A stretch of 64,000 bases of DNA from Shinella sp. WSJ-2 (GTDB lineage: Bacteria > Pseudomonadota > Alphaproteobacteria > Rhizobiales > Rhizobiaceae), in assembly GCF_003432075.1 (NCBI RefSeq), contig NZ_QWBU01000004.1:248001-312000 (forward strand). Direction: 5' to 3'. How positions within the stretch are numbered: position 1 is the first letter of the stretch; each line of letters starts with the position of its first letter. The notes below the pieces were generated by a model that saw nothing but the letters and a program-made list of their open reading frames with translations, made no database searches and was not told where the DNA came from. Shown piece by piece: positions 1 through 29,848 of the stretch. The position numbers and the translations under genes were made by a program.

Positions 1-1032
1 GCGATGGCGCGCACCGAGAGACGAATCCAGCTCGCCGCCCCGATCGGCGGAAGGTCCGAGCGCGGTGTAGAGCACGACGCTCTCCCCGCCCTCCAAGACC
101 CGGAGGCCCGCTTCGATGGCGGCCGCGATCGTCGCGGCATTGTCCGGGCTCGACAGGGCGACCGCATCCAGCGTCACGCCGGCAAAACCATGGGCAAGCG
201 CATGGCGGATCTGCCGTTCGGTCGTCGACGACACGCTGCCGGAGACGACGGCGATACGGTCGGCCGGTCCGGCATCGGCAAAGACCGGCTTGCCGCCGAT
301 CAACCCCGCCTGCCGCCAGGCGGGGATCAGGGCATATTCGACGCCCGAGGAGCCGCAGACGAAGAGGCTTTCCGCGCGCAGCCGGTTCCAGAGCAAGCCA
401 CCCGCCGCTGCCTGCGTCGGCGCATCGAGCACATCGAGCAGCAGGATATCGGCAGCCTCCGGCTCAGGCGTGCCCAGCAGCGCGACATTGTCCACCAGTG
501 CCGACGAAAGCGTCGTCTGACGTGCGAGGTGCAGCAGCACATTCGCCTCGTCCATCGGCGTGACCGGATGGCGCGACATGACGGGGTGACGGTCGATGCG
601 GTAGTTGCGGCCCTGATAGGCGGCGAAGAGTTCACCGAATGCCGTGTAGCGACGGATTTGCGGCGCACCGACGATGAGCGGCACCGTTGCCTCGCCGAAG
701 ACCGCGCGGCCGATCTCGATGGCCCGGCCGATATTACCGACATCCGGCGCGGAATCGAAGGTCGAGCAGACCTTGTAGTGGCAGAGTTCCGCATCCAGCG
801 TCTTCAGCCAGCCGAAGGCTTCGCTGAGATGCACATCCATCCAGTCGGGCGTTTCGCTGCGGCTGGTGCCCGCCAGCCCATAGGCGCGGGCACCGGAGAA
901 GCGCGACAGCAGGTCCGCATCCGGTCGTTTCAGGAAAAGCACGGTCTCGACGCCGTTCGAGGCCAGCGCCTCCATGACATCGGTCGAACCGGTGAAATCG
1001 TCGCCATAGTAGCTGATCAGAGGACGCGTCAT
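1..1032 (-). CDS. oiaK: 3-oxo-isoapionate kinase, four-carbon acid sugar kinase family (3' end outside window)
   Basis: The protein opens MTRPLISYYGDDFTGSTD, the N-terminal signature of the DUF1537 four-carbon acid sugar kinases. About 344 codons are visible and the frame is still open at the left edge; family members run to roughly 420 residues, so the C-terminal part is missing. The start ATG lies 3 bases after the stop of the RuBisCO-like gene, so the two are cotranscribed. In the D-apionate pathway described for rhizobia a kinase of this family (OiaK) makes 3-oxo-isoapionate 4-phosphate, the substrate of the RuBisCO-like decarboxylase. Family membership is seen directly. The substrate is inferred from the neighbours oiaX, apdH, apnL and apsD; other members act on L-threonate, D-erythronate or 3-dehydrotetronate. 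Confidence 0.85.
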   Translation of the reverse strand, partial: MTRPLISYYGDDFTGSTDVMEALASNGVETVLFLKRPDADLLSRFSGARAYGLAGTSRSETPDWMDVHLSEAFGWLKTLDAELCHYKVCSTFDSAPDVGNIGRAIEIGRAVFGEATVPLIVGAPQIRRYTAFGELFAAYQGRNYRIDRHPVMSRHPVTPMDEANVLLHLARQTTLSSALVDNVALLGTPEPEAADILLLDVLDAPTQAAAGGLLWNRLRAESLFVCGSSGVEYALIPAWRQAGLIGGKPVFADAGPADRIAVVSGSVSSTTERQIRHALAHGFAGVTLDAVALSSPDNAATIAAAIEAGLRVLEGGESVVLYTALGPSADRGGELDSSLGARHR

Positions 1033-1035
1033 GTC

Positions 1036-2292
1036 TCAGGCCGCCTTGCCGTCGGCAAATTTTTCGATGGATTGTGCAAGTTCGGGATGGTCCTTTGCGT
1101 AGATCGCGAGCGGCACGCCTGAAGCCGCCGCCTCCCAGGCCTGCTTCACCGCCTTCACCCCTGCCCCCGGCCCGCCCGGATGGCTGACGATGCCGCCGCC
1201 GCAGAGATAGAGCAGCTCCGTCGAGCCGCCCGTCGCCGCGATCGTATCGGGTGCCTGCCCACCCCACTGGCCGGAACCGATGACCGGAAGCGCCACATCC
1301 TTCTGCGAAAACAGCGGCGTCGTCACCGCCTTGTAGGAGCGCACGAAACTCTCGTCCGGCTCCCAGTATTTCACGCGGATGCCGTTGATCTGGAACTGAT
1401 CGACGCCGAGCAGGCGCCAGAACTGTTGCCAGACCGAGAATTCGAAGCCGAGGCCGGCATGGCGGGTGAGGATATCCCAGCCGTTGCGGTGAGCATGCAG
1501 CACGAGGCCGGAGCGTTTGCGCAAGAAGGCGAGGCCACCGAAACCGATCGAGTTGATGTTGACGACGGCGCAATTGCCTCCGGCCTGCAGCACCATGTCG
1601 TGGTTGCGCATCATCTCGTCCGGATCGGCATGGCTGATGCCAAAGGCATACATGACCTTCTTGCCGGTCTTCTGCTCTTGATCGAGGATTTTCGGCATGA
1701 TCGCCGCGACGCGATCCTTCAACGACGAATAGGCCGGGCTCATCAACTTCTCGTCGTCCTTGATGAAATCGACGCCGGCGTCGATGAGTTCACCGACCAT
1801 CTCGGCCGTTTCATGCGGCCGCAGGCCGAGCGCCGGCTTGACGATCGTGCCGATGATCGGCCGGTCCTTGACACCCGTCAGCGCAAAACTGCCGGAGACG
1901 CCGAACTGCGGGCCGAGATGGGCGGCGGCAAATTCCGGCGGCAGCTTCATGTCAACGATGCGGATGCCCGTCATGCCCTTGATAGAAAAGACGCCGCCGA
2001 CCGTGATGGTCATCAGTGCGGAGAGATCGGTGCCCACGGCATCCAGCGGAAAATCGATATCGACATCCGCCCGGTTGAACGTGACGGCATCGCCCGCCTC
2101 ATCGGGGAAGGAGGCGCGGTCCGTCGGTGGCAGCGGGCGGATGGCAACGACGCGGGCGGCGACGCGCGCCTTTAGCTCCTCCGTCTCGCCCGGCAGCGCC
2201 ACGAAGGTCCCGGTCGACTGGTCGCTGGCGATCTTCATCGCCATTTTGTCCACCGAGCCCGGCGTCTCTATCCGATAGGTCAGACGGATCAC
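1036..2292 (-). CDS. oiaX: RuBisCO-like protein, 3-oxo-isoapionate-4-phosphate decarboxylase
   Basis: A 418-residue RuBisCO large-subunit homologue. The GTG start at 2292 is chosen because GGGAGGAG precedes it by 5 bases; longer readings lack a ribosome site. Residues 148-156 (GTIVKPALG) match the first active-site lysine motif, with K152 kept and the next lysine replaced by Ala. Residues 175-182 (DFIKDDEK) keep the carbamylated Lys178 and the metal ligands Asp180 and Glu181. HAHR at 266-269 corresponds to the HIHR of RuBisCO. Around 337-344 (VIGSGQWG) there is no loop-6 lysine, so CO2 fixation is not expected. Position upstream of oiaK in an apiose locus points to decarboxylation of 3-oxo-isoapionate 4-phosphate to L-erythrulose 1-phosphate. 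The alternative is the transcarboxylase/hydrolase relative OiaT; the eryH and eryI genes nearby favour OiaX. Confidence 0.85.
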   Translation of the reverse strand: MIRLTYRIETPGSVDKMAMKIASDQSTGTFVALPGETEELKARVAARVVAIRPLPPTDRASFPDEAGDAVTFNRADVDIDFPLDAVGTDLSALMTITVGGVFSIKGMTGIRIVDMKLPPEFAAAHLGPQFGVSGSFALTGVKDRPIIGTIVKPALGLRPHETAEMVGELIDAGVDFIKDDEKLMSPAYSSLKDRVAAIMPKILDQEQKTGKKVMYAFGISHADPDEMMRNHDMVLQAGGNCAVVNINSIGFGGLAFLRKRSGLVLHAHRNGWDILTRHAGLGFEFSVWQQFWRLLGVDQFQINGIRVKYWEPDESFVRSYKAVTTPLFSQKDVALPVIGSGQWGGQAPDTIAATGGSTELLYLCGGGIVSHPGGPGAGVKAVKQAWEAAASGVPLAIYAKDHPELAQSIEKFADGKAA

Positions 2293-2338
2293 GTTTTCTC
2301 CTCCCGCAGTCATGCCATGGCGCTTGTTAAGGCCCCAC

Positions 2339-2355
2339 AACTGGTATAATGAGTA
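2339..2355. promoter_or_regulatory. Probable GntR/FadR-type operator before oiaX
   Basis: The sequence AACTGGTATAATGAGTA lies between the divergent oiaX and GntR regulator genes. It nearly repeats AACTGGTATAACAAGTC upstream of apdH at 11361 (14 of 17 positions) and fits the TNGTNNNACNA consensus of the FadR subfamily except for one base. It also contains TATAAT (2345-2350), a possible -10 element for the rightward regulator gene, with TTGTTA at 2324-2329 as a weakly spaced -35. Binding is inferred, not shown. Confidence 0.6.
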
Positions 2356-2442
2356 TTTATGTTATTGCAAGTCGATTGCCGCGAAAGCTGTTGCGGCGAA
2401 GGAACTTGGTGCATATTCAAACCTGTCGAAACCAGGTGACTC

Positions 2443-3159
2443 ATGAACGTCGTTTCCGAACCGATCGTCCGCAAAAAACTCTCCGACGAAGTCTTCGCGC
2501 GGCTGAAGGCCATGATCGAGACCGGCGAGCTGAAAGCCGGCGACGACATGCCCTCCGAGCGCGAACTGATGGAGCGCTACGGCGTCGGCCGTCCGGCGAT
2601 CCGCGAGGCCATGCAGGCGCTTGCCGGCAAGGGTCTCGTCGAGATTTCGCAGGGCGAGCGCGCCAAGGTGTTGCGCATCACCGCCGAATCCATCATCCGC
2701 CAGGTGGATCTGCCGGCCAAGATGATGCTGTCCGGCTCCTCCGATTCCCTTGAACACCTGAAGAGCGCCCGCATCTTCTTCGAACGTGGCATGGTCCGCG
2801 AGGCCGCCACCAGGGCGACGCCCGAGCATATCGCCGAACTGCGCGCCCTCGTCGACAAGCAGAAGGCCAGCCTCGGCGACGCCGACGCCTTCATCGATGC
2901 CGACATGGAGTTCCACCAGTGCATTGCCCAGATCTCGGGTAATCCGATCTTCGTGGCCGTCAGCCGGGCGATGCTCGGTTGGCTGAAGTCCTATCATACC
3001 GAAATGCTCATCTGGACCGGCCGCGAGAACTTCACGCTCGCCGAGCACGAGGAAATCATCCGCGCCATCGAGAAGGGCAATGCGGACCTTGCCGAAAAGG
3101 CGATGATCAAGCATCTCGAACGCTCCCGCGCGCTCTATGCCCTCAAGGGGCAGAAGTAA
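2443..3159 (+). CDS. GntR-family (FadR/FCD subfamily) regulator of the apiose genes
   Basis: A 238-residue regulator with an N-terminal winged helix (about residues 8-72, containing MPSERELMERYGVGRPAIRE) and an all-helical FCD effector domain from about residue 95. The FCD metal-site residues are recognisable: Asp and His in DADMEFH, and later His in EHEE and KHLE. It is divergent from oiaX and convergent with apnL, whose stop lies 4 bases beyond. It probably represses the apiose genes in the absence of a pathway intermediate, through the paired sites at 2339 and 11361. The effector is unknown; apionate or a later sugar acid would be a reasonable guess. There is no strong Shine-Dalgarno before the ATG. 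Confidence 0.85.
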   Translation: MNVVSEPIVRKKLSDEVFARLKAMIETGELKAGDDMPSERELMERYGVGRPAIREAMQALAGKGLVEISQGERAKVLRITAESIIRQVDLPAKMMLSGSSDSLEHLKSARIFFERGMVREAATRATPEHIAELRALVDKQKASLGDADAFIDADMEFHQCIAQISGNPIFVAVSRAMLGWLKSYHTEMLIWTGRENFTLAEHEEIIRAIEKGNADLAEKAMIKHLERSRALYALKGQK

Positions 3160-3162
3160 GGG

Positions 3163-5025
3163 TCAGAGCACGATCTCGATGCAGCCATAGGGCGGCAGGG
3201 AAACCTGTCCGGCCACGGGCAACGCGTCTTCGCCAATCAGCGTCACCGCACGCGGTGTCGACGGCAGGATCACCGTCTGCACCTCCGGCGTGATGTTTGC
3301 CAAAAGCAGGCATTCCTCCGACGCGAGACCAAGCACCGCATCCGGCCGCGACGTCTCGACGGCGTGAACCGCCTGCCCCGTCAAAGCGCCAAGGCGGGCC
3401 AGGACACGCGCGAGCGGCCGCAATTTCCCCTGCGCCACCGCCTCGCCTTCGCCGGCAACCAGCCCGAACGAACCGGCCAGCGTCGAAAGCGTCAGGACCT
3501 CAAGCCCCGTTGTTGCGACCGTCGTAGCATAGGCAAGCGTCCAGGCCGCGCCGAACTGGCCATTGTGCCTGGCATCGACATTCGCCATCGGAATGCGGCA
3601 ACCGGAGGGATTGTCCTTCGTCGAACTGCCATAGGGGTTCTGCCGCATGGGGATTGTCGACGGGCCGATGCGATAGGGCTTTTCGCCATAGATTGCGCGG
3701 GTGGAACTGACGACGAAACGCAGCGCCTCGAAGGTCTGCATGACCGAAAGATCGTCGGCCGCATGCACAATCGGGTTCGTGCAATGGCTGACATAGTCGA
3801 TAAGGTCGCCGGGCACACGCTTGCGGTTGAGCTCGGTAAAATAGCTCATCATACCGCCACCGAGGCGCACCCTCGGAAAGACAGCGCGTGCTGCTGCATA
3901 GACATCCGCAAGCGGCGGGCAGTCGGGCCAGACGCTGCCCGGCGGCGTCGACTGGCGATCGACCGCAGGGCAGACGAACAGCGTGTCGAGCACCAGCCCG
4001 GCCTTTCGCACGAGCGCGGCAAGCTCGGCCATCTCCGCGTTCAACGGGGCCTTACAGGGCACTGCAACCTCGAGCGTCACCTTGAGGCCGGAGCGTTCGG
4101 CAAGCTCGGCATAGCCTTTCAGAGCCGGCAAACCATGGCCAGCACCGGGATCGAAATGCGCGATGAGGTGTCGTGCGCCGATGGCCTGAAGGATTCCGAG
4201 CGCTGCCCGTTCCTGCCCCAAGCATTCCGGACGCAGGCCGACGCCGATCTCGGGAAAACGCTGCTTCGTCGGCGTCAGGTGCAGCGCGATGGCACCCGAT
4301 GCACCGGCAGCCGGAACCGCATCGGCGGCGGCTTTGATTGCGACCACGACCTTCTGGCTGAAGGGTTCATCCTTCGGAACGCTATAAGGCCAGGGCAGCG
4401 CCAGCGGGCGCACATAGGTCTTGTAGGAGCCATCGGTCCAGTTGCGCTGGTCTTCCATCTCAAAGATATCGCCGACGAATTCCGTCACCGCCGAAATGCC
4501 CGGCGCCACCTGATGGGTGATCGCGGAAATCTCCTTGAACGGCTGCCAGGGCTCGATCTGGTCGGGCCAGTGCGCATGCTCGACACCGCCATCGCCGTGA
4601 CAGACTGTAACGGGCTGTCCTGCGACACCGATAACGGGATGCAACACCACGAAGCCCGCCCGCGCCGTCTCGAAATCTGCATCGCTGACGCAGTCGGCGG
4701 AGAAGGTGACAGTCTTTTCCGTGCCTGTAATCGTGATGGCGCAATCGAGATGGGCGCCGGACGGCGCGGTGAAACGAGCCTTGTAGGAAACGGAAAAGCC
4801 CGGCCCTGCTGCCCCGATCTGAAGATCGGCAATCTCGGCGCCGCAGGTACCCCAGTCCTTGTCCCGCACGAGGAACGCCACCGCGCGCAGCACCTCATGC
4901 CCGCGAAAGCGCAGGGTGCGCAGATTGCCGTCTTGAAGCGTCACACTCAGATCACCGGCGACGAGCGTGCGGCTTTCGGGCTCGCGCTCGTTTGTACCGT
5001 ACAGCCTGAGCAAGTCGCCGTTCAT
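3163..5025 (-). CDS. apnL: D-apionolactonase
   Basis: A 620-residue protein with no signal peptide and no membrane segments. Its length and its place directly behind apsD match D-apionate lactonase (ApnL), which opens the D-apionolactone made by D-apiose dehydrogenase. The ATG at 5025 overlaps the apsD stop by 4 bases, which implies translational coupling. I cannot point to a well-known catalytic motif, so the call rests on length, overall character and gene order. It is the last gene of the leftward unit that starts at apdH, and it ends 4 bases from the end of the convergent regulator gene with no clear terminator between them. Confidence 0.8.
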   Translation of the reverse strand: MNGDLLRLYGTNEREPESRTLVAGDLSVTLQDGNLRTLRFRGHEVLRAVAFLVRDKDWGTCGAEIADLQIGAAGPGFSVSYKARFTAPSGAHLDCAITITGTEKTVTFSADCVSDADFETARAGFVVLHPVIGVAGQPVTVCHGDGGVEHAHWPDQIEPWQPFKEISAITHQVAPGISAVTEFVGDIFEMEDQRNWTDGSYKTYVRPLALPWPYSVPKDEPFSQKVVVAIKAAADAVPAAGASGAIALHLTPTKQRFPEIGVGLRPECLGQERAALGILQAIGARHLIAHFDPGAGHGLPALKGYAELAERSGLKVTLEVAVPCKAPLNAEMAELAALVRKAGLVLDTLFVCPAVDRQSTPPGSVWPDCPPLADVYAAARAVFPRVRLGGGMMSYFTELNRKRVPGDLIDYVSHCTNPIVHAADDLSVMQTFEALRFVVSSTRAIYGEKPYRIGPSTIPMRQNPYGSSTKDNPSGCRIPMANVDARHNGQFGAAWTLAYATTVATTGLEVLTLSTLAGSFGLVAGEGEAVAQGKLRPLARVLARLGALTGQAVHAVETSRPDAVLGLASEECLLLANITPEVQTVILPSTPRAVTLIGEDALPVAGQVSLPPYGCIEIVL

Positions 5026-6056
5026 GCCAGCAGATCCGCAATCACGATGGTCTCGCCGCGCTCCGCGCTCAAATAAGCGGCCTCGACGAGGGCGAAGGTC
5101 TTCAGGTTGTCGTGGCCGGACGTATCCGGCTCGCGGCCTTCCGCCAGCCGTTCCGCCCAGTGTTTCTGGATGAGCGCGACACTTTCCTGAATGTTGTGCC
5201 AGGGCCGCGACGCCCAGGGCAGCAGGTTCGGCGCGACCACGCTTTGTACCGTGCCTTCTGGACCATGAACCGTCAGCTTGTAATCCTTGCCCAGGCGCAG
5301 CGTGCCCCTGGTGCCATCGATTTCGACGAAGGTTTCCGGGAACGGCTCTTCCGGCAGTTTCGTCGCATAGCTGACATCGACGATCGAGGTGATGCCATTG
5401 TCATGGTCGAGCAGCATGGTCGCGACATCCTCGCCGGCGATCTCAGGATTGACGCGGCGCGTGCGGGCGGTCATGCGGCTGGCATCGCCGAAGAGGAAGC
5501 GGGCGATGTCGAGCGAATGGATGCCGAGGTCTTCGATGATGAAGCGCTTGCCCTGGGCAAGATAAGGCTGGCCGGAGAAGACATCGAAGCCAGAGCGGAA
5601 GGAGACGCGTCCCCAGAAGGGTTCACCGATTACGCCACTGTCCAGCACCGCCTTGACGGCGAGGATCGGGGTCTGCCAGCGGAAATTCTCATGGATCATC
5701 AGCGGGATGCCGGCGGCATCGGCAGCGGCGACCATGGCCTTGGCATCCGCCAGCGTCGGCGCGAAGGGCTTCTGGCAGATCGCCGGCACCTTGTGGCTGG
5801 CGGCAAGCTCGACCAACGCGCGGTGGCTGCCGACGGTCGTTGCAATATCGACGAAGTCGAAGCCGCCATCGGCGAACATGTCCTCCGCCGACTGGTAGCG
5901 CCTCTCAATGCCGAACTGGTCGCCGACAATGCGCAGGCGCTCGGGATCACGGTCGCAGATCGCGACGATCTCCACGTCATCGAGATCCTGCCAGCCATGC
6001 ATCTGGTTGACGGCGAAGAAGCCGCAGCCGATCAGCGCACCCTTGGTCTTCGTCAT
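5022..6056 (-). CDS. apsD: D-apiose dehydrogenase, Gfo/Idh/MocA family
   Basis: A 344-residue NAD(P)-dependent sugar dehydrogenase. Residues 1-35 form the Rossmann nucleotide-binding start (MTKTKGALIGCGFFAVNQMH), followed by CDRDPERL at the end of the second strand. The family EKP motif appears as QKPFAPT near residue 97. The C-terminal half is the usual open-sheet substrate domain. It sits between the ABC permease gene (2-base gap) and apnL (4-base overlap). In the known D-apiose pathway this enzyme oxidises D-apiose to D-apionolactone, the substrate of ApnL. The family is broad, so the specific substrate depends on context, which here is strong. Confidence 0.85.
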   Translation of the reverse strand: MTKTKGALIGCGFFAVNQMHGWQDLDDVEIVAICDRDPERLRIVGDQFGIERRYQSAEDMFADGGFDFVDIATTVGSHRALVELAASHKVPAICQKPFAPTLADAKAMVAAADAAGIPLMIHENFRWQTPILAVKAVLDSGVIGEPFWGRVSFRSGFDVFSGQPYLAQGKRFIIEDLGIHSLDIARFLFGDASRMTARTRRVNPEIAGEDVATMLLDHDNGITSIVDVSYATKLPEEPFPETFVEIDGTRGTLRLGKDYKLTVHGPEGTVQSVVAPNLLPWASRPWHNIQESVALIQKHWAERLAEGREPDTSGHDNLKTFALVEAAYLSAERGETIVIADLLA

Positions 6057-6058: not shown

Positions 6059-7129
6059 TCAGCCTGCCTTTGCCATCTGCATCAGGGTGACGCGCTGCTG
6101 CAGGCGGCGCTGCGCCTGGTCGACCACCACGGCCACGATGATCACGAGCCCCTTGATCACCATCTGCCAGAAGGAACTGACCCCCATCATCACAAGTCCG
6201 TCCGAGAGAATCCCGATCACGAAGGCGCCGATGATCGTGCCGCCGATCGTGCCGCGCCCGCCTGACATGGATGTACCACCGAGAACCGCCGCCGCAATGG
6301 CATTCAGTTCGAGATTCGTGCCGGTCGCCGGATGCGAGGCCATCAGTTCCGAGGAGATGACAAGGCCGACGATGGCCGCGCAGAAACCGGAGAACATGTA
6401 GACGAACATCTTCACGCGGTTAACGCGGATGCCGGACATGCGCGACGCGCGCTCATTGCCGCCGACGGCGAAGATATGCCGGCCGAGCGGCACGAAGCGG
6501 GCGAAATAGGCCGCCCCCAGCGCCACGACGATGAGGATCCACACGGAAACCGGAAGCCCGAGGATGGAGCCCGAGCCGAGATAGGCAAAGCCCTGGTTGC
6601 CGAGGTCTTCGCGTCCCGTCAGATTGGGCAGCGTCTGGCCGTCGGAATAAAGCAGCGCCATGCCGCGCGCTACGTAGAGCGTGCCGAGCGTCGCGATGAA
6701 GGGCGCGACGTTGAGGCGGGTGATAAGCAGGCCGTTAACCGCACCAATGACGATACCGACAATGGCAACGATAACAGCCACCTCGACCACGTTGAAATAG
6801 ACGGTATAGCCGAGCGGCAGCGCCACGCCATACATGATGAGGCCGCCGGCGATCATACCGCAGAGGCCGACGATGGAGCCGACCGACAGATCGATGCCGC
6901 CGGTGATGATGACGAAGGTCATGCCGATGGCAAGGAAGGCGTTCTGCGTCGCATGCTTCGACATCAGGATCATGTTGGCGGTCGATAGAAAGTTCGGCGC
7001 GAAGATCGAGAAGAAGATGATGACCGCGAAGAGCGCGATGAAGGTGCGGAGCTTCATGAGCGTCAGCAGGGCGGCGCCAGTGGAGAGGTGGTTGCCGGTG
7101 GCGGCAGTTTGCGTTGCTGTCGTCATCAC
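6059..7129 (-). CDS. Ribose-type ABC transporter permease (apiose)
   Basis: A 356-residue inner-membrane permease of the RbsC/BPD_transp_2 family. About ten hydrophobic segments are visible, the first near residues 30-52 (FIALFAVIIFFSIFAPNFLS). The family motif ITGGIDLSVGSIVGL is near residue 80, and GGTSMSGGRGTIGGT is in the C-terminal half. The start overlaps the ATPase stop (ATGA). With the ATPase, DUF2291 protein and binding protein it forms one importer, expected to carry D-apiose or a related branched sugar. Confidence 0.9.
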   Translation of the reverse strand: MMTTATQTAATGNHLSTGAALLTLMKLRTFIALFAVIIFFSIFAPNFLSTANMILMSKHATQNAFLAIGMTFVIITGGIDLSVGSIVGLCGMIAGGLIMYGVALPLGYTVYFNVVEVAVIVAIVGIVIGAVNGLLITRLNVAPFIATLGTLYVARGMALLYSDGQTLPNLTGREDLGNQGFAYLGSGSILGLPVSVWILIVVALGAAYFARFVPLGRHIFAVGGNERASRMSGIRVNRVKMFVYMFSGFCAAIVGLVISSELMASHPATGTNLELNAIAAAVLGGTSMSGGRGTIGGTIIGAFVIGILSDGLVMMGVSSFWQMVIKGLVIIVAVVVDQAQRRLQQRVTLMQMAKAG

Positions 7130-8670: not shown

Positions 8671-8671
8671 G

Positions 8672-9310: not shown

Positions 9311-9336
9311 TCCCAGTCTCCGTCTTGAATAGAAAA

Positions 9337-9365
9337 CGCGAGGCAGGGACGAGCCCCGCCTCGCG
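9337..9365 (-). other. Intercistronic hairpin after the apiose binding-protein gene
   Basis: The arms CGCGAGGC (9337-9344) and GCCTCGCG (9358-9365) are a perfect 8-bp inverted repeat, and the loop contains a further GGG/CCC pairing. There is no T tract. It lies 14 bases past the binding-protein stop and before the DUF2291 gene. It could be an mRNA stabiliser or partial attenuator that keeps binding-protein mRNA more abundant than the rest. Confidence 0.6.
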
Positions 9366-9379
9366 CCATCGCGGGAGGA

Positions 9380-10444
<1,065 letters not shown>

Positions 10445-11377: not shown

Positions 11378-11406
11378 AATAACTATCTGTGTGGATATGT
11401 GATGTT

Positions 11407-16574: not shown

Positions 16575-16642
16575 CGCTGTCTCCATTCTCAAGCGAAGGA
16601 GAAACGGCACCGAGCATTGGGTTATCCGCAGCAGCGGACCCT

Positions 16643-18560: not shown

Positions 18561-18679
18561 GGTCTCACTCCCTTTGTTGAGTTCGGTTACGCCGATTTTC
18601 GGCAATACTTTCCGCTCTCGGGCCACTGGATGGTCCGCCTCTCCCGATAGCAGTCCGTTGGTGTCGGTCGCCGCTGGTC

Positions 18680-19720: not shown

Positions 19721-19733
19721 GGCTTCAGCGCTC

Positions 19734-21271
<1,538 letters not shown>

Positions 21272-21275
<4 letters not shown>

Positions 21276-21922
21276 TGGACGTCGAACCTCACGGGGGTGA
21301 CGATCCAGCTCTTCGGATTGACGAGCTTGAACACGCCGATGACGGAAACGGTCTTGCCGGAAAGGGCGGCTGGGTCGATGCCGCCGAGAACAACCTTCTT
21401 GACCTCGTTGTTGATGGCCGAGCCGGCGTCCTGGTATTCGATCTGGTTCTTGAACTGGCCGAATTCGATCTGGCCGGTCGCGTCGCGCAGGTCCGTGCCG
21501 TTCAGCGCCGGACCGGTCTGGACGCGTACCGTCAGCTCGGTCGGAAGGCCCTCGACGGCAATGAGATTGTAGTTCGCCTTGCGCTCACCGATCACGCCGG
21601 TGAACTTGACCGGGAAAACCGGTCCAGTGGAGGTCTTGACGCCGTATTTATCGCTGGCTGCCTTCTTGTCGGCGGCAATGGCCTGAGCCAATTCGGCCGC
21701 ATCGGCCGCCCGCGTTTCCACGCTCTGCTTGATGAGCGGGAACTGCTCCGTGCCAAAAGCTTCCGGCGAGAATTTCTGAACCTGTACGTCGGCTTCCGAG
21801 CCGATCTGCACGATCTTGGTATCGAAGGCCATGGCGCCGACCAGCACGACGGCGGCGGCGATGCCGATCCAGCGATAGCTGCGGGCAGGCTGGGACGATT
21901 TCGGGAGCGTGGCGTCAGTCAT
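21272..21922 (-). CDS. DUF2291 membrane-anchored protein, first gene of the polyol transporter operon
   Basis: A 216-residue DUF2291 protein with one N-terminal transmembrane segment (about residues 18-34, WIGIAAAVVLVGAMAF) and a periplasmic body. Unlike the paralogue at 8672 it has no lipobox cysteine. It overlaps the ATPase start by 4 bases. Only a weak AAGG lies before its ATG, so translation may depend on upstream initiation. Its role in transport is not established. Confidence 0.78.
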
Positions 21923-22701: not shown

Positions 22702-24252
22702 ATGGCTGAGACGGCAGACCTGATCATCGGCATCGACGCCGGCACCTCCGTCATGAAGGCCGTCGCCTTCACGCTTTCCGGCCGCCAGATCGCCAGCGCC
22801 TCCGTGCGCAACAGCTACAAGACCAGCGACGACGGCTCCGTCACGCAATCCCTCGACCAGACATGGCTCGATTGCGCGCGCGCCCTGCGCGGTCTCGGCG
22901 AAAAGGTCCCGGACCTTGCCGGCCGCGCCGCCGCCATTGCCGTCACCGCCCAGGGCGACGGCACCTGGCTCGTCGGCGCCGGCAACCGCCCCGTCGGCGA
23001 TGCCTGGCTGTGGCTCGATGCGCGTGCGGCCCCCACTGTCGAGTGGCTTGCCGCCAGCGCGGCCGACCGCCAGCGTTTCGAGGCGACCGGCACCGGCCTC
23101 AATACCTGCCAGCAGGGCACGCAGCTTGCCCATATGGACCGCCATTTCCCGGAACTGCTTGCCGGCGCGGAAGCCGCCATGCACTGCAAGGACTGGCTCT
23201 ACCTCAACCTGACGGGCGTGCGCGCCACCGACCCGTCCGAGGTGAGCTTCACCTTCGGCAATTTCCGCACCCGCTGCTATGACGGCGACGTGCTCTCCGC
23301 GCTCGGCCTGACGCACCGCCGCAACCTGCTGCCCGAAGTGCTCGAGGGCACCGAAACCACGCATCCGCTGACGGCAGACGCCGCCGCGGCCGCGGGCCTG
23401 AAGGCCGGCACGCCTGTCTGCCTCGGCTATGTCGACATGTGCATGACGGCACTGGGTGCCGGCGTGCGAAGCGAGGGCCGCAACGCCGCATGTTCCGCCA
23501 TCGGCTCGACGGGCGTGCACCTCCAGGCGAAGTCCGTCGCCGATGTCGTGCTGAATGCCGAGCGCACCGGCTATGTCATCGCGCTGCCAATCCCTGGCAT
23601 CGTCACCCAAGTGCAGACCAATATGGGCGCGACGATCAACCTTGACTGGCTGCTCCAGCTCGGCGCCGATCTGCTTGGCGAATTTGGCGTGACCGTCGGC
23701 CTCAACGACATGATCGGTCGCGTCGACCAGTGGATTGCCGCCAGCAAGCCGGGCAATGTGCTCTACCACCCCTATATATCCGAGGCCGGCGAACGCGGCC
23801 CGTTCGTCAATGCCCGCGCCCGCGCCAATTTCACAGGCCTTGCCAGCCGCCACCGCTATCCCGATCTCGTGCGCGCCGTCGTCGAAGGCCTCGGCATGGC
23901 GACGCGCGACTGTTACGCCGCCATGGGCGCCCTGCCCTCGGAACTCCGCGTTAGTGGCGGCGCGGCCCGTTCGGCCTCGCTGCGCGGTACATTGGGCGCC
24001 GCCCTTGGCGCGCCGGTGCGCGTCAGCACCCGCGAGGAAGCGGGTGCGGCCGGCGCCTCGATGATGGCAGCCGTCGCCATCGGCGCCTATCGCACGATGG
24101 ACGATTGCATCGCCGACTGGGTGACGCCCGAGCTTGGCGATGCCGAGCAGCCCAAACCCGAAGACACCGAACGCATGAACCGCCTCTTCGCCGCCTATTC
24201 CGAGGTGCGCCGGGGCATTGCACCGGCCTGGGACATCCTGGCCGCACGCTGA
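22702..24252 (+). CDS. eryA: Erythritol kinase
   Basis: A 516-residue FGGY kinase. The phosphate-binding loop IIGIDAGTSVMKAVAF is at residues 8-23 and the C-terminal SGGAARSASLRGTLGAAL near 417. The start MAETADLIIG gives the expected family N-terminus, although its ribosome site is poor. In-frame alternatives at 22564 and 22636 would add unrelated residues. Gene order eryA-eryB-eryC-eryD matches Brucella and rhizobial erythritol loci. EryA phosphorylates erythritol to L-erythritol 4-phosphate. It lies first in the rightward operon, divergent from the polyol transporter genes. Confidence 0.9.
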   Translation: MAETADLIIGIDAGTSVMKAVAFTLSGRQIASASVRNSYKTSDDGSVTQSLDQTWLDCARALRGLGEKVPDLAGRAAAIAVTAQGDGTWLVGAGNRPVGDAWLWLDARAAPTVEWLAASAADRQRFEATGTGLNTCQQGTQLAHMDRHFPELLAGAEAAMHCKDWLYLNLTGVRATDPSEVSFTFGNFRTRCYDGDVLSALGLTHRRNLLPEVLEGTETTHPLTADAAAAAGLKAGTPVCLGYVDMCMTALGAGVRSEGRNAACSAIGSTGVHLQAKSVADVVLNAERTGYVIALPIPGIVTQVQTNMGATINLDWLLQLGADLLGEFGVTVGLNDMIGRVDQWIAASKPGNVLYHPYISEAGERGPFVNARARANFTGLASRHRYPDLVRAVVEGLGMATRDCYAAMGALPSELRVSGGAARSASLRGTLGAALGAPVRVSTREEAGAAGASMMAAVAIGAYRTMDDCIADWVTPELGDAEQPKPEDTERMNRLFAAYSEVRRGIAPAWDILAAR

Positions 24253-24302: not shown

Positions 24303-25814
24303 ATGAACGAGCCCGAGCTTATTGACCTCTTCGTGATCGGCGGCGGCATCAACGGCGCCGGCATTGCCCGCGATGCGGCGGGCCGCGGATTGAAGGTCGT
24401 GCTCTGCGAGAAGGACGACCTGGCCGAGGGCACGTCCTCTCGCTCCGGCAAGCTGGTGCATGGCGGGTTGCGCTATCTCGAATATTACGAGTTCCGCCTG
24501 GTGCGCGAGGCGCTGATCGAGCGCGAAGTGCTGCTCAATGCCGCCCCGCACATCATCTGGCCCATGCGCTTTGTGCTGCCGCATAGCCCTGAGGATCGCC
24601 CCGCCTGGCTCGTGCGTCTCGGCCTCTTCCTCTACGACCATCTCGGCGGCCGCAAGAAGCTGCCGGGCACCCGCACGCTGGACCTGAAGCGCGATCCCGA
24701 GGGTACGCCGATCCTCGACCAATACACGCGCGGCTTCGAATATTCCGATTGCTGGGTGGATGACGCCCGCCTCGTGACGCTGAACGCCATCGGCGCCGCC
24801 GAAAAGGGCGCCCTCGTGCTCACCCGCTCGCCCGCCACTTCCGCCCGCCGCGAAAACGGCGCCTGGACGGTCACGACGAAGAACAGCGTAACCGGCGAAA
24901 CGAGAACCTTCCGCGCCAAATGCCTCGTCAACTGCGCCGGCCCCTGGGTCTCCGACGTCATCAACCGCGTCGCCGGCTCGAACTCGTCGCGCAATGTGCG
25001 CCTCGTCAAGGGCAGCCATATCATCGTGCCGAAATTCTGGGCGGGCGCGAATGCCTATCTCGTGCAGAACCACGACAAGCGCGTCATCTTCATCAACCCC
25101 TACGAGGGCGACAAGGCGCTGATCGGCACGACCGATATCGCCTATGAGGGCCGTGCCGAGGATGTCGCGGCCGACGAGGCGGAAATCGAGTACCTGCTGA
25201 AGGCGGTGAACCGCTACTTCAAGGAGAAGCTGCGACGGCAGGATGTGCTGCATTCCTTCTCCGGCGTGCGCCCACTGTTCGACGACGGCAAGGGCAACCC
25301 CTCCGCCGTCACGCGCGACTACGTCTTCGATCTCGACGAAACCGGCGGCGCGCCGCTGCTCAACGTCTTCGGCGGCAAGATCACCACCTTCCGCGAACTG
25401 GCCGAGCGCGGCATGCACCGCCTCCAGCACATCTTCCCCAACATGGGCGGTGACTGGACGGAAAAGGCGCCGCTGCCGGGCGGCGATATGCCAGGCGCCG
25501 ACTACGAGACCTTCGCCAACAGCCTGCGCGAGAGCTATCCCTGGATACCGCGCAAGCTGGTTCAGCATTATGGCCGCCTCTATGGCACCCGCACAAAAGC
25601 GATCGTCGGCAGCGCCACCAGTCTCGACGGTCTCGGCCGGCATTTCGGCGGCCAGTTCTACGAGGCGGAGGCGCGCTACCTCGTCGAAAATGAGTGGGCG
25701 CAAAGAGCGGAAGACGTGCTCTATCGCCGCACCAAACACTACCTGCATCTGACGGAAGCCGAACGCGCGGCCTTCGCCGACTGGTTCAATACTGCCCGCC
25801 TAGCTGCGGCCTGA
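24303..25814 (+). CDS. eryB: L-erythritol 4-phosphate dehydrogenase (FAD, GlpD-like)
   Basis: A 503-residue flavoprotein of the GlpD family. The FAD motif FVIGGGINGAGIARDAAGRG is near residue 10, and SRSGKLVHGGLRYLEYYE near 47-64 is the conserved GlpD region. The ATG at 24303 has AAGGAGA 6 bases upstream. It oxidises erythritol phosphate to the tetrulose phosphate used by EryC and delivers electrons to the quinone pool. It lies 50 bases after eryA and 7 before eryC. Confidence 0.9.
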   Translation: MNEPELIDLFVIGGGINGAGIARDAAGRGLKVVLCEKDDLAEGTSSRSGKLVHGGLRYLEYYEFRLVREALIEREVLLNAAPHIIWPMRFVLPHSPEDRPAWLVRLGLFLYDHLGGRKKLPGTRTLDLKRDPEGTPILDQYTRGFEYSDCWVDDARLVTLNAIGAAEKGALVLTRSPATSARRENGAWTVTTKNSVTGETRTFRAKCLVNCAGPWVSDVINRVAGSNSSRNVRLVKGSHIIVPKFWAGANAYLVQNHDKRVIFINPYEGDKALIGTTDIAYEGRAEDVAADEAEIEYLLKAVNRYFKEKLRRQDVLHSFSGVRPLFDDGKGNPSAVTRDYVFDLDETGGAPLLNVFGGKITTFRELAERGMHRLQHIFPNMGGDWTEKAPLPGGDMPGADYETFANSLRESYPWIPRKLVQHYGRLYGTRTKAIVGSATSLDGLGRHFGGQFYEAEARYLVENEWAQRAEDVLYRRTKHYLHLTEAERAAFADWFNTARLAAA

Positions 25815-25821: not shown

Positions 25822-26757
25822 ATGCCGCTCACGCTCTCGCTCAACACCAATCCGCTGGTCAACCGCTTCGCCGATCCCGATGATCTCATCGAGACCGTCG
25901 CACGCGACCTGAAACTGCGCGATCTCCAGCTCACGCACGAATTCATCAATCCGAGCTGGAATGCCGCGACGATCCGCCGGCTGACCCGCCAGATGGATAA
26001 GGCGCTTCAGCGCACCGGCGTGCGCGTCACGTCGGGCATGACCGGTCCCTATGGCCGCCTCAACCATTTCGGCCATCCCGATGCGGATGTGCGCCGCTAC
26101 TATGTCGACTGGTTCAAGACCTTCGCCGATATCATTGGCGATCTCGGCGGCACCTCCGTCGGCACCCAATTCGCCATCTTCACCTACAAGGATTTCGACG
26201 ATCCGGTTCGCCGCGAAGAATTGATCCGGATCGCCGTGGATTGCTGGGCGGAGGTGGCGGAGCACGCCAAAGGTGCCGGGCTTTCCTATGTGTTCTGGGA
26301 GCCGATGAGCGTCGGTCGCGAATTCGGCGAGACGATCGCTGAATGCATCAAACTTCAGGACCGCCTGACCGCCGCCGACATGGCCATTCCCATGTGGATG
26401 ATGGCCGATATCGACCATGGCGACGTCACCTCCAGCAATCCCGACGATTTTGAACCCTATGCCTGGGCGCGCGCCGTGCCGAAGGTGTCGCCGATCATCC
26501 ACATCAAGCAGAGCCTGATGGACAAGGGGGGCCACCGCCCCTTCACGGCGGAATTCAACGCCAAGGGCCGCATCCAGCCGGAACCGTTGCTGAAGGCCTT
26601 CGCCGAGGGCGGTGCTGTCGACAACGAGATCTGCCTCGAACTTTCCTTCAAGGAGCGCGAGCCGAACGACCGGCAGGTCATTCCGCAGATCGCCGAAAGC
26701 ATAGCCTTCTGGGCGCCGTTTATCGATACCGGCGCATCCGATCTCAAGCTGGGCTGA
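25822..26757 (+). CDS. eryC: Tetrulose-4-phosphate racemase/epimerase
   Basis: A 311-residue TIM-barrel protein of the sugar-phosphate isomerase/epimerase (AP endonuclease 2-like) type. Likely metal-site positions are Glu in FVFWEPMSVGRE-like context (YVFWEPMS), Asp and His in MADIDHGD, and Glu in CLELSFKERE. In Brucella EryC converts L-3-tetrulose 4-phosphate to D-3-tetrulose 4-phosphate, which is the same compound as L-erythrulose 1-phosphate. It was formerly annotated as a dehydrogenase. The gene lies 7 bases after eryB. Confidence 0.88.
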   Translation: MPLTLSLNTNPLVNRFADPDDLIETVARDLKLRDLQLTHEFINPSWNAATIRRLTRQMDKALQRTGVRVTSGMTGPYGRLNHFGHPDADVRRYYVDWFKTFADIIGDLGGTSVGTQFAIFTYKDFDDPVRREELIRIAVDCWAEVAEHAKGAGLSYVFWEPMSVGREFGETIAECIKLQDRLTAADMAIPMWMMADIDHGDVTSSNPDDFEPYAWARAVPKVSPIIHIKQSLMDKGGHRPFTAEFNAKGRIQPEPLLKAFAEGGAVDNEICLELSFKEREPNDRQVIPQIAESIAFWAPFIDTGASDLKLG

Positions 26758-26802: not shown

Positions 26803-26830
26803 CTTGCTGGAGCAGGACAGGACATCGCCG

Positions 26831-27775
26831 ATGACCGACAATGAAGATTCTCTCGCCATCCGCGCCGCCTGGCTGCATTACATCGGGGGGTTCACGCAAT
26901 CTGCCGTCGCCAAGCGCCTTGGTATTCCCTCGGTCAAGGCGCATCGGCTGATCGCGCGCGCGGTCGCCGAGGGTGTGGTGAAGGTCAGCATCGACGGCGA
27001 TATTGCCGAGTGCGTCAATCTGGAGGTCGAACTCTCCAAGCGCTACGGCCTCGATTATTGTGAAGTCGCACCCGATGTCGATGACGATGCGCTGGCGTTG
27101 ACGACCCTTGGCCATGTCGGCGCGGATTTCCTGCGGCGCGAGATCGAGCGCGGTGAAGTCGCCGTCATCGGCCTCGGCCATGGGCGCACGCTGTCGGCCG
27201 CCGTGCATCATCTGCCCCGTGTCAGTGCCAGCGGCACGCGTTTCGTCTCGCTGCTCGGCGGCCTTACCCGCAACTATGCGGCCAATCCCTATGATGTCAT
27301 GCATCGTCTGGCGGCCAAGACCGGCACGCAGGCCTATGTGATGCCCGTGCCCTTCTTCGCCAATACGGAGGAGGACCGCGAAGTTCTGCTCTCCCAGCGC
27401 GGGGTCAGCGAGGTGTTCAATCTCGCCCGCAATGCCGATCTGAAGCTCGTCGGCATCGGCACGGTCGACAATCAGGCGCATCTCGTCACATCGGGCATGT
27501 TGCAGCCGAACGAGTTGGAGGAGATCAGAGCCCTCGGCGGTGTCGGAGAACTGCTCGGCCATTTCTTCGACAGCAAGGGCCGCATTCTCGAAACATCCGT
27601 AACGGCACGCACGCTGGCCGCCTCCTTCTCGGAGAAAGGCGGCGACCGGGTCGTCGCCATTGCCGGCGGCCGCTCCAAGACGGAAGCCATCCGCGCCGTG
27701 CTGCACAGCCACAAGCTCCACGGACTGATCACCGACGAACGGACGGCGCGCACGCTGCTGCAAAGCTCGACATAA
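26831..27775 (+). CDS. eryD: SorC-family repressor of the erythritol operon
   Basis: A 314-residue regulator with an N-terminal helix-turn-helix (about residues 20-50, GFTQSAVAKRLGIPSVKAHR) and a C-terminal sugar-binding domain of the SorC/DeoR type. The ATG at 26831 is preferred over an upstream TTG at 26804. In Brucella EryD represses the ery operon and is relieved by erythritol. Here it lies 73 bases after eryC, across a palindromic site, and may have its own promoter. Confidence 0.88.
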   Translation: MTDNEDSLAIRAAWLHYIGGFTQSAVAKRLGIPSVKAHRLIARAVAEGVVKVSIDGDIAECVNLEVELSKRYGLDYCEVAPDVDDDALALTTLGHVGADFLRREIERGEVAVIGLGHGRTLSAAVHHLPRVSASGTRFVSLLGGLTRNYAANPYDVMHRLAAKTGTQAYVMPVPFFANTEEDREVLLSQRGVSEVFNLARNADLKLVGIGTVDNQAHLVTSGMLQPNELEEIRALGGVGELLGHFFDSKGRILETSVTARTLAASFSEKGGDRVVAIAGGRSKTEAIRAVLHSHKLHGLITDERTARTLLQSST

Positions 27776-27834
27776 AAATCACAAAATCACAATTTTAGTG
27801 TTATAATGTGCTGTGCGGACGGTGGGAGGACGCG

Positions 27835-28608
27835 GTGAAACGGGAAGAGCGCAGGCAGGAAATCATCAATCTGCTCGTCGAAAGCCGGGCCGTCGAACTC
27901 GATGATATCGCAGCGCGCTTCGGCGTCTCCAAGATGACCATCCACCGCGATCTCGACGATCTCGAACGGGCCGGCGTGCTGCGCAAGGTACGTGGCGGCG
28001 CGACGATCGATGCCGGCACGCAGTTCGAAAGCGACTTCCGTTTTCGCGAGCTTCAGGAGGCCGACGTCAAGCGGGCGTTGGCCGAAACGGCCGCCGAGCT
28101 TGTCGAGCCGGGAATGACCGTGATGATCAATGACGGATCGATGGCTTCTGTGCTGGGCGATGTGCTCGCGGACAAGAAGCCGATCACCATCATCACCAAC
28201 AATGCCGCGATCATGGAGCGCGCCAAGGGCCTTTCCGGCGTGACGCTGATCGGCCTCGGCGGCGTCTACTCCTCCAAGTTTAACGCCTATTTCGGCATCG
28301 TCACGGAAGAAGCCCTGTCGCGCCTCCGCGCCGACATCGCCTTCATCTCGGCGCCCGCCGCATCCGGCCGGCTCGCCTACCACATGGACGAGGCCGTGGT
28401 GCGCACCAAGCGGGCGATGATGGCCTCCAGCCGCCAGACCTGCCTCATGATCAACAGCCGCCGCTTCGGCCACACGGCACTGCACGTGCTCGCCGATCTC
28501 GCCGATTTCGACACCGTCATTTCAGACAAGAACCTGCCCCACGACACATCCGCCGCGCTTGACGGCGGCAAGACCGTGGTGCACATCGCCAGGGAGACAA
28601 CACCATGA
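27835..28608 (+). CDS. eryR: DeoR-family regulator of the erythritol downstream genes
   Basis: A 257-residue DeoR/GlpR-type regulator. The GTG at 27835 is chosen because GGGAGGA lies 4 bases upstream. The winged helix lies at about residues 3-57 (IAARFGVSKMTIHRDLDDLE), followed by the DeoRC domain (INDGSMASVLG, ITNNAAIMERA). It overlaps eryH by 4 bases, so regulator and isomerases are coupled. The gene order DeoR regulator, triose-isomerase homologue, RpiB homologue is that of Brucella and Rhizobium erythritol loci. It is distinct from the DeoR regulator at 16643. Confidence 0.85.
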   Translation: MKREERRQEIINLLVESRAVELDDIAARFGVSKMTIHRDLDDLERAGVLRKVRGGATIDAGTQFESDFRFRELQEADVKRALAETAAELVEPGMTVMINDGSMASVLGDVLADKKPITIITNNAAIMERAKGLSGVTLIGLGGVYSSKFNAYFGIVTEEALSRLRADIAFISAPAASGRLAYHMDEAVVRTKRAMMASSRQTCLMINSRRFGHTALHVLADLADFDTVISDKNLPHDTSAALDGGKTVVHIARETTP

Positions 28609-29375
28609 GCCAAGGCCGCAACTTCTGGGTCGGCACGAGCTGGAAGATGAACAAGACGCTGGCGGAAGCGAAAGTCTTCGCCGAGGGCTTGAAGGCCGCC
28701 GATGGCGGCCGCAATCCCCGCATCCAGCGCTTCGTCATCCCGCCCTTCACCGCCGTGCGCGAGGTCAAGGCGCTGCTCGCCGATACTTCCGTCAAGGTCG
28801 GCGCGCAGAACATGCACTGGGCCGACGAGGGCGCCTGGACCGGTGAGGTCTCGCCCGTCATGCTGAAGGATTGCAATCTCGACCTCGTCGAACTGGGCCA
28901 TTCCGAGCGCCGCGAGCATTTCGGCGAGACGGACGAAACGGTCGGCCTCAAGACGGAAGCGGCCGTGCGACACGGCCTCGTGCCGCTGATCTGCATCGGT
29001 GAAACACTGGCCGATCGCGAAAGCGGCCGTGCGGACGAGGTGCTCGCCAAAGAGGTACGCGGCGCGCTCGGCAAGCTCCAGGGCGCCCAGAAGCAGGCCG
29101 AAATCCTGCTCGCCTACGAGCCCGTCTGGGCAATCGGCGAAAAGGGCATTCCCGCCACGGCCGAATACGCCAACGCGCGCCATGCCGAGATCGCCAAGGT
29201 GGCGGAAGATGTGCTCGGCCAGCGCATTCCCTGCCTCTACGGCGGCTCGGTGAACCCTGGGAATTGCGAAGAACTGATCGCCTGCCCAGACATCGACGGG
29301 CTCTTCATCGGTCGCTCGGCCTGGAAGGTCGAAGGCTATCTCGACATCCTGGCGCGCTGCGCCGTTACCATCTAA
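28605..29375 (+). CDS. eryH: L-erythrulose 1-phosphate isomerase (triose-phosphate isomerase homologue)
   Basis: A 256-residue TIM barrel with all catalytic residues of triose-phosphate isomerase: Lys14 in WKMNK, His99 in GHSERR and Glu172 in YEPVWAIG. In erythritol loci this paralogue (EryH, also LerI) converts L-erythrulose 1-phosphate to D-erythrulose 4-phosphate. It is coupled to eryR by a 4-base overlap and followed by eryI after 14 bases. The product of the RuBisCO-like OiaX would enter at this same step, so the gene may serve both pathways. Confidence 0.9.
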
Positions 29376-29389
29376 CAAGGAGACGTACC

Positions 29390-29848
29390 ATGAAACTCGC
29401 TATTGCCGGTGACAGCGCGGGCGAAGGCCTCGCCAAGGTTCTCGCCGATCACCTGAAGGCCAGCCATGATGTGCACGAAATCTCGCGCACCGATGCCGGC
29501 CCAGATGCCTTCTACGCCACCCTCTCCGACCGCGTCGCTTCGGCCGTCATCGCCGGCGAATACGATCGTGCGATCCTCGTCTGCGGCACCGGCATCGGCG
29601 TCTGCATCTCGGCCAACAAGGTGCCCGGCATCCGCGCCGCGCTGACGCACGACACCTATTCGGCCGAGCGCGCCGCCCTGTCCAACAATGCCCAGATCAT
29701 CACCATGGGCGCCCGCGTCATCGGCTCGGAACTGGCCAAGGCTATCGCCGACGCCTATCTCGCCCAGACCTTCGACGAGAACGGCCGCTCGGCCGGCAAC
29801 GTCCAGGCGATCAACGAAGTCGACGCCAAATACAACGCCGGCAAGTAA
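29390..29848 (+). CDS. eryI: D-erythrulose 4-phosphate isomerase (RpiB homologue)
   Basis: A 152-residue RpiB/LacAB-family isomerase. The N-terminal [14 protein letters not shown] and the catalytic cysteine region [17 protein letters not shown] (Cys65) are clear. The ATG at 29390 has AAGGAGA upstream. EryI (also DerI) converts D-erythrulose 4-phosphate to D-erythrose 4-phosphate for the pentose phosphate pathway. It is the last gene of the ery operon and is followed 10 bases later by a hairpin. Confidence 0.9.

Follow-up and report, generated by a model that had tools for sequence, protein, structure and literature searches.

In the 64,000-nucleotide stretch of the Shinella sp. WSJ-2 genome analysed here (the window), catabolic loci for the plant sugar apiose and the sugar alcohol erythritol are confirmed to lie side by side in a Shinella-like soil member of the Rhizobiaceae, and the two routes very probably feed one common pair of finishing enzymes, EryH and EryI. 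An OiaX-type RuBisCO-like protein (RLP) is encoded in a D-apiose-type operon, which adjoins an ery locus of the Rhizobium leguminosarum type with eryR-eryH-eryI at its end. The distance from OiaX to DerI is 27.1 kb, in agreement with the figure of less than 30 kb given by a sequence-only reading of this DNA, whose genes and coordinates proved right apart from the corrections given below. The underlying chemistry is already known, and the layout is recurrent in relatives. The comparison turns a biochemical statement, namely that LerI and DerI are needed for the output of OiaX, into a cross-genome regularity with an internal control.

It is highly likely that L-erythrulose 1-phosphate is the meeting point of two known catabolic routes, which share a single isomerase pair, EryH and EryI, as their way out. 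On one side, apiose would be oxidised, opened, rearranged and phosphorylated by ApsD, ApnL, ApnO and OiaK, and OiaX would decarboxylate the phosphorylated product to L-erythrulose 1-phosphate, reportedly the product that Carter and colleagues assigned to this enzyme in 2018. On the other, erythritol would reach the same compound via EryA, EryB and EryC, and EryH (LerI) followed by EryI (DerI) would convert it to D-erythrose 4-phosphate. We infer both the operation of these reactions in this organism and the sharing of EryH and EryI in vivo. The decarboxylation step of OiaX is named in PMC6302742; complementation of growth in engineered E. coli points to conversion of L-erythrulose 1-phosphate to erythrose 4-phosphate by LerI and DerI together (PMC10733421), and EryH and EryI of Brucella correspond to the LerI/DerI tetritol exit (PMC5468441).

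The apiose cluster is cut by the window edge, at which lies the 3' part (1..1032, minus strand) of a kinase gene adjoining oiaX. Taken whole (L007:1731-3032, 433 aa), it matches OiaK (NF042436) better than any other NCBIfam family, at 428.6 bits against a cut-off of 700, and its position next to oiaX points to an OiaK-like kinase, apparently a divergent member of the OiaK family. Its left neighbour encodes a GGDEF protein. The gene for 3-oxo-isoapionate-4-phosphate decarboxylase, oiaX (1036..2292, minus), exceeds its cut-off (NF042437, 775.6 bits against 700), as does apnL, encoding D-apionate lactonase (3163..5025, minus; NF049900, 808.3 bits against 750). Between them, on the plus strand, lies a gene for a GntR/FCD (NanR-like) regulator (2443..3159; NF003011, 353.7 bits against 260, with Pfam GntR and FCD domains), of which a minus-strand ORF at 2362-3114 is a shadow. 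The remaining genes, all on the minus strand, encode a Gfo/Idh/MocA dehydrogenase (5022..6056; Pfam GFO_IDH_MocA), a sugar ABC transporter whose permease, ATPase, DUF2291 lipoprotein and binding protein were recognised from profile matches and annotated relatives (6059..10321, with the periplasmic binding protein at 9380-10321), and a PGDH_C-domain protein (10445..11272; PF16896, 251.2 bits). From context, we take the dehydrogenase and the PGDH_C protein to be candidates for ApsD and ApnO; no NCBIfam model of either name matched a window protein. The apiose genes named by the sequence-only reading thus stand for OiaX and ApnL, but its OiaK falls below the cut-off, and a separate apdH found no support in the window. 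Compared with the OiaX branch of D-apiose/D-apionate catabolism, reportedly described by Carter et al. in 2018, the cluster shares OiaX and ApnL at equivalog level and the grouping of OiaK-like kinase, dehydrogenase, PGDH_C protein and ABC transporter, whereas its OiaK is divergent and its lerI and derI reside in the neighbouring ery operon rather than in the cluster. The genome's second RLP (C12), 23% identical to OiaX, has no apiose reference match besides itself within its 10 kb.

The R. leguminosarum-type erythritol locus is defined by eryEFG, eryABCD and eryR-tpiB-rpiB (PMC3599248), and the window carries this layout with an eryEFG-type transporter. On the plus strand, family matches identify eryA, a candidate FGGY erythritol kinase (22702..24252), eryB, a GlpD-type dehydrogenase (24303..25814), eryD, a sugar-binding regulator (26804..27775), and eryR, a DeoR-family regulator (27835..28608; start from the sequence and a relative's gene length), and PF01261 marks eryC as a candidate TIM-barrel epimerase (25822..26757); eryB follows the order seen in relatives including R. 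johnstonii 3841, and eryC and eryD the order in that strain. The starts of oiaX, eryA, eryB and the DAK kinase described next were set from a relative's gene length. A supposedly intervening polyol transporter and kinase operon is indeed present, but the block at 13376-21922 belongs to the ery locus itself as its transporter arm, as on pRL12 of R. johnstonii 3841. By profile matches and by comparison with that strain, it consists of a second polyol enzyme set with a GlpD-like oxidoreductase, an FGGY kinase and a DeoR regulator (13376..17482, minus) and of eryG, eryF and eryE plus a DUF2291 gene for the erythritol-type ABC transporter (17613..21922, minus). Gene set and order match those of the pRL12 ery locus, including the GlpD-like/FGGY/DeoR block, whereas after the GlpD-like gene the window continues with a dihydroxyacetone-kinase (DAK) family kinase and the apiose cluster. 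This kinase (11584..13284, minus; NF011049, 749.6 bits against 492; Dak1 and Dak2), possibly a tetrulose kinase, is the only gene extra to the pRL12 transporter arm.

The LerI/DerI tetritol exit, also present in Mycobacterium smegmatis, has its counterpart in the window as adjacent genes for a TIM-family and an RpiB-family isomerase, a pair presumably supplied in this organism by an RLP decarboxylase in addition to the polyol route. The candidate L-erythrulose-1-phosphate isomerase (LerI) gene, eryH/tpiB (28605..29375, plus), encodes a TIM-family protein (253.4 bits; best NCBIfam model triose-phosphate isomerase) and occupies the place of tpiB in eryR-tpiB-rpiB on pRL12. The adjoining eryI (29390..29848, plus) passes the DerI model (NF051858, 254.1 bits against 240). 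Searches of the organism's own genome located TIM genes in two places, eryH and a distinct gene whose product is 39% identical to EryH and presumably glycolytic. DerI/RpiB and an ery-type LerI were each found once, in the ery operon, and EryH and EryI are therefore the sole exit visible for what OiaX produces. The sequence-only reading had placed EryH and EryI in the ery operon, denied the apiose cluster a lerI/derI of its own and proposed that one pair probably serves both routes; these points are supported, as the searches gave no further pair and the only genes found for both isomerase steps, being in the ery operon, would therefore serve both.

Besides gene content and single copies, co-occurrence of OiaX with LerI and DerI is tight, and this comparative support is strong. 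In the family sample of 297 Rhizobiaceae genomes, OiaX exceeds its cut-off in 59, and all 59 also carry DerI over its cut-off versus 29 of the 238 others (by genus, 32/32 versus 10/77). A LerI homologue (E ≤ 1e-60) likewise accompanies OiaX in 59 of 59 genomes, compared with 31 of 238 others, some of the homologues in OiaX genomes being distant (48-56% to the window's EryH). Among 397 genomes of the order, a sample overlapping that of the family, DerI passes its cut-off in 23 of 26 OiaX genomes versus 16 of 371 others, and reaches at least 230 bits, a line picked after the list was seen, in 25/26 versus 27/371; one OiaX genome (G536) has a best DerI match of only 144.5 bits. As an internal control, DerI occurs in 3 of 19 genomes whose ApnO-linked RLP is of non-OiaX type, and in 5 of 32 of all genomes with a non-OiaX RLP. 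Three genomes (G145, G263 and G266) have derI in the apiose operon and the only LerI found (E ≤ 1e-60) in the ery operon, which in genomes of the G145/G263 type lies about 180-210 kb away; such pathways seem to borrow half their exit from another locus. The P-values for co-occurrence ignore the relatedness of the genomes, and OiaX and DerI may both track plant-associated accessory genomes.

A joint apiose-ery regulon was sought in the window and none was found. The predicted GntR-type operator, AACTGGTATAATGAGTAT, has two sites there, both in the apiose cluster: a strong copy (2339..2356, plus; 37.5 bits), conserved across the intergenic regions between oiaX and gntR, and a weaker copy upstream of apnO (11361..11378, plus; 17.8 bits) that shares an exact 12-mer with 2338-2349. 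The operator scan found no copy in the ery region of the window, and eryR-eryH-eryI is separately marked by its own predicted EryR operator, TCACAAAATCACA (27779..27791, plus), overlapping a promoter-like site at 27778-27807. Because the 36 sites behind the GntR weight matrix come from the same loci, counts of oiaX/gntR operators are circular; the matrix does not include the apnO and lerI sites. In 5 of the 139 other loci (L012, L021, L047, L065 and L067), which are fetched stretches rather than whole genomes, a GntR-type operator lies upstream of LerI/DerI, each at most about 2 kb from an apiose gene. The EryR motif, derived from 22 upstream regions, was sought in 140 sequences with at most one mismatch allowed; of its 32 occurrences, 30 lie upstream of EryR, one is close to DerI and one is at another place. 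It is present in 26 of 45 EryR loci (missing in 19) and in none of 43 LerI loci lacking an EryR match; these counts are partly circular, their specificity less so. A copy near 11390 with three mismatches is at chance level, and a palindrome search of the oiaX-gntR region gave none widely shared, the best being in 6 of 50. We infer that in apiose growth eryR-eryH-eryI is induced through EryR and not through the apiose regulator.

No support emerged for the physical union of the two loci being special, since it recurs among relatives. A rare or unique fusion is ruled out because 24 of 59 OiaX genomes, from 14 of 32 genera, have DerI no more than 30 kb from OiaX. Of the best 80 named loci among 412 relatives, 30 also carry LerI and/or DerI in flanks of up to 10 kb, several of these 80 loci probably coming from the same genomes. 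A linkage of the two loci is absent from the titles and abstract openings on apiose, apionate and isoapionate searched in the open-access literature; apiose and erythritol appear together there in plant, food and chemistry titles. The neighbourhood itself could still be neutral, two independent accessory loci having met by chance on one replicon with the sharing of EryH and EryI indifferent to location, and we regard this as quite possible, if somewhat short of probable. In keeping with it, 35 of 59 OiaX genomes have both exit enzymes although no DerI lies on the same contig within 30 kb of OiaX (in draft assemblies, as many are, this can mean another contig), five Shinella records place both loci on one plasmid about 135-146 kb apart, and the window shows no common operator. 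Against it stand the linkage frequency just given, where random placement in 5 Mb predicts about 1% per genome (simple arithmetic that ignores clustering on accessory replicons), and the several different fused arrangements of apiose genes with lerI/derI.

Were the OiaX product instead to leave elsewhere, for example through an aldolase or the glycolytic TIM, EryH and EryI would serve erythritol only. The second TIM of the genome and the cleavage of erythrulose 1-phosphate suggested for erythritol use by S. meliloti (PMC10733421) would fit such a route, which is nevertheless most unlikely, given that none of 59 genomes has OiaX without DerI and a LerI homologue and that lerI and/or derI sit inside apiose operons in several lineages. 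Misnaming of the first substrate, with a branched acid or a sugar other than D-apiose entering a common exit, is also improbable: it would accommodate the sub-threshold OiaK and the lack of named NCBIfam matches for ApsD and ApnO, but OiaX and ApnL both exceed equivalog cut-offs and the cluster content is conserved across relatives.

Returning to the shared exit through EryH and EryI, it is tempting, if distinctly tentative, to speculate that eryR-eryH-eryI is not an erythritol set but a self-regulated mobile "tetrulose-phosphate exit" module, in which EryR senses tetrulose phosphate and any feeder (erythritol, apiose via OiaX, or free tetrulose via the DAK kinase) induces it. The module or its parts would have been drawn repeatedly into apiose operons, islands like that of the window representing stages of assembly. 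The shared exit offers a clean test system for how one terminal module responds to several feeders, and a possible reason for copies of eryR-tpiB-rpiB outside ery loci, as reported in Sinorhizobium fredii (PMC3599248). In the table of genomic contexts, "alone" denotes a fetched stretch, often about 10 kb per side, with no ery or apiose gene found in it. On the LerI tree, in which the long branches G381 and G167 are of unsure place, apiose context requires 10 changes against a mean of 14.0 in shuffles, and the apiose label is thus more clustered than shuffled.

The shared exit that the sequence-only reading proposed for D-apiose and erythritol holds true for the genes, where the two routes converge, and very probably for metabolism as well, with comparative support beyond what that reading could have known. 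The window is one case of a recurrent layout, and its chemistry is already known. OiaX, the RuBisCO-like protein (RLP) of the apiose route, is said, in the 2018 work of Carter and colleagues, to produce L-erythrulose 1-phosphate. LerI and DerI (here EryH/TpiB and EryI/RpiB) convert L-erythrulose 1-phosphate to erythrose 4-phosphate, and EryC is the D-erythrulose 1-phosphate 3-epimerase (PMC10733421). RLPs act on 3-oxo-isoapionate 4-phosphate by decarboxylation or by transcarboxylation and hydrolysis (PMC6302742). In Brucella, an eryH mutant fails to grow on erythritol, and an eryI mutant is likewise inhibited by it (PMC5468441).

A D-apiose-type operon, recognized by profile matches and annotated relatives, occupies positions 1–11272 on the minus strand. 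Its oiaX (775.6 bits) and apnL (808.3 bits) genes pass the equivalog cut-offs of 700 and 750, respectively. The kinase gene cut by the left edge of the window is labeled OiaK-like by position because OiaK is its best family, yet the full-length product, completed beyond the edge, scores 428.6 bits against a cut-off of 700. The operon also encodes a sugar ABC transporter with a DUF2291 lipoprotein, as well as a Gfo/Idh/MocA dehydrogenase and a PGDH_C-domain protein, which we take, partly from their context, to be the candidate ApsD and ApnO. A GntR/FCD regulator gene, on the plus strand, separates oiaX from apnL. Elsewhere in this genome, a second RLP (contig C12, 44672–45379; stretches L002 and L008) matches the RuBisCO_large Pfam model at 72.4 bits and shares 23% identity with OiaX; comparison of its neighborhood to the apiose reference proteins yielded no match.

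The erythritol (ery) locus (13376–29848) has the gene order of pRL12 of Rhizobium johnstonii 3841. The likeness includes the second FGGY kinase/GlpD-like/DeoR set (13376–17482, minus strand) and the DUF2291-eryE-eryF-eryG transporter divergent from eryA, and the locus fits the R. leguminosarum type of Geddes et al. (2013, PMC3599248). The transporter and kinase genes that the sequence-only reading had set between the two loci as a separate operon do exist, but they belong to the ery locus because the same order is found on pRL12. The sole gene separating the two systems encodes a DAK-family kinase (11584–13284, minus strand). In 11 of the 85 genomes surveyed, a DAK homolog (at least 40% identity) sits no more than 4 kb from LerI or DerI, making it possible that this protein is a tetrulose kinase acting as a third feeder.

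Searched against the 5.14 Mb assembly, EryI found a single place, inside the window, and EryH found two, its own gene and that of a TIM with 39% identity to it, presumably the housekeeping enzyme. The apiose operon therefore lacks a LerI and DerI of its own, as had been supposed, and no pair other than eryH/eryI was visible to these queries in the assembly.

Among 297 Rhizobiaceae genomes, OiaX exceeds its cut-off in 59 and DerI in 88. DerI is found in all 59 OiaX genomes versus 29 of the 238 others (by genus, 32/32 versus 10/77). A LerI homolog (E ≤ 1e-60) likewise occurs in 59/59, as a single copy in 57, versus 31/238; the most distant of these homologs is 48% identical to the window's EryH. 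In an order-level sample of 397 genomes, 26 carry OiaX, and DerI exceeds the cut-off in 23 of these versus 16 of 371 others; at 230 bits or more the counts are 25/26 versus 27/371, in the exception, G536, DerI matches reach no more than 144.5 bits. The 20 OiaX genomes of the order sample outside the family sample have two to three TIM places each (E ≤ 1e-20), the best being 47–82% identical to EryH. In one genome (G381, stretch L056), a very divergent TIM, 47% identical to EryH and on a very long tree branch, sits directly between oiaX and derI; it is possibly another kind of LerI.

The control group comprised 32 Rhizobiaceae genomes in which no protein reaches the OiaX cut-off but an RLP scores 380–455 bits against that model. 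An ApnO homolog lies within 10 kb of the RLP in 19 of them, and in four stretches fetched the RLP adjoins an OiaK homolog in three and an ApnO homolog in two. These RLPs may belong to the transcarboxylase/hydrolase type (OiaT), which is not known to make a tetrulose phosphate. DerI exceeds the cut-off in only 5/32 control genomes and in 3/19 with an ApnO-linked RLP; LerI and DerI therefore track the OiaX subtype, not apionate-type clusters as such. The p-values (1.3e-40 and 5.6e-14) ignore relatedness and are descriptive.

The physical union of the two loci proved to be recurrent. In the linkage comparison opened by ARRANGEMENTS, no more than 30 kb separates OiaX from DerI in 24 of the 59 OiaX Rhizobiaceae genomes (14 of 32 genera), and no more than 3 kb in eight; in 35, some of them drafts, they are not that close on one contig. 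Whole loci are adjacent, as in the window, in G075, G219, G273, G153, G246, and G294. The ery and apiose loci are fused or almost touching in G050, G221, and G271, and in Mesorhizobium loti (L200) and M. ciceri (L198). Finally, the apiose operon contains or ends with lerI-derI in G029, G128, and G155, and in Rhizobium metallidurans (L197), R. altiplani (L227), and Peteryoungia aggregata (L170). The nearest named relatives of the window are Shinella. In the genus sample, the window's own genome, G075, G219, and G273 are linked, and G157 yielded none of OiaX, DerI, or LerI. The loci adjoin in two S. zoogloeoides plasmid records and lie ~135–146 kb apart on one plasmid in five records of S. oryzae, S. 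sumterensis, and Shinella sp. H4-D48; annotation of the 18 kb flanks of the apiose cluster contains no ery genes in Shinella sp. HZN7 and Ensifer canadensis.

Of the 59 family genomes, 30 have LerI no more than 12 kb from eryA/B/C (in three of them it also adjoins apiose genes) and six have it next to apiose genes alone; in 22 the fetched stretch shows neither kind of neighbor, and for one no stretch was fetched. Both enzymes flank 26 of the best 80 named loci; another three have only DerI in their flanks and one has only LerI. On the LerI tree (81 proteins), the apiose-context label (15 rows) requires 10 changes, at least seven forced by well-supported branches, and recruitment into the apiose context is thus repeated, on this tree at least; the DerI tree (83 rows, 14 labeled) gives 11 changes, two of them forced. 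Three genomes (G145, G263, and G266; stretches L016, L015, and L014) carry one derI in the apiose operon and another in the ery operon, which also holds the only LerI they yielded at E ≤ 1e-60; their apiose pathway seems to borrow half its exit. The reverse split, lerI by oiaX with derI elsewhere, occurs in G441, G603, and G616 and, as assembled, in G272, whose derI is on a 7 kb contig.

Intergenic regions between oiaX and gntR have a conserved element in common, AACTGGTATAATGAGTAT, which is a predicted operator of the apiose-cluster GntR/NanR-like regulator; its 7-mer GGTATAA occurs in 37 of 49 such regions. Across 139 loci (2.63 Mb) it gave 115 sites, eight unassigned, that mark oiaX/gntR and apnO along with a small number of further apiose genes; five loci have a site ahead of a lerI or derI neighboring apiose genes. 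The window has two sites, at 2339 and 11361, and none in its ery region. Separately, the regions upstream of eryR have TCACAAAATCACA in common, a predicted EryR operator that in the window (27779–27791) overlaps a promoter-like ATCACA-18-TATAAT. A scan of 140 sequences tolerating up to one mismatch gave 32 occurrences, of which 30 precede EryR, and 26 of 45 EryR loci carry it. Both motif analyses are partly circular. With its own conserved TCACAAAATCACA and no AACTGGTATAATGAGTAT in the ery region, eryR-eryH-eryI seems to be a unit under its own control, in agreement with the "suboperon" of Geddes et al. (PMC3599248). Apiose would presumably induce it through a tetrulose phosphate acting on EryR. 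How a shared terminal module comes to be induced by two feeders with separate predicted operators is, with the borrowed half-exit, the point of interest. The same paper reports that Sinorhizobium fredii has, apart from its ery locus, a xenologous second copy of eryR-tpiB-rpiB (PMC3599248), which feeding from an apiose-type pathway could explain.
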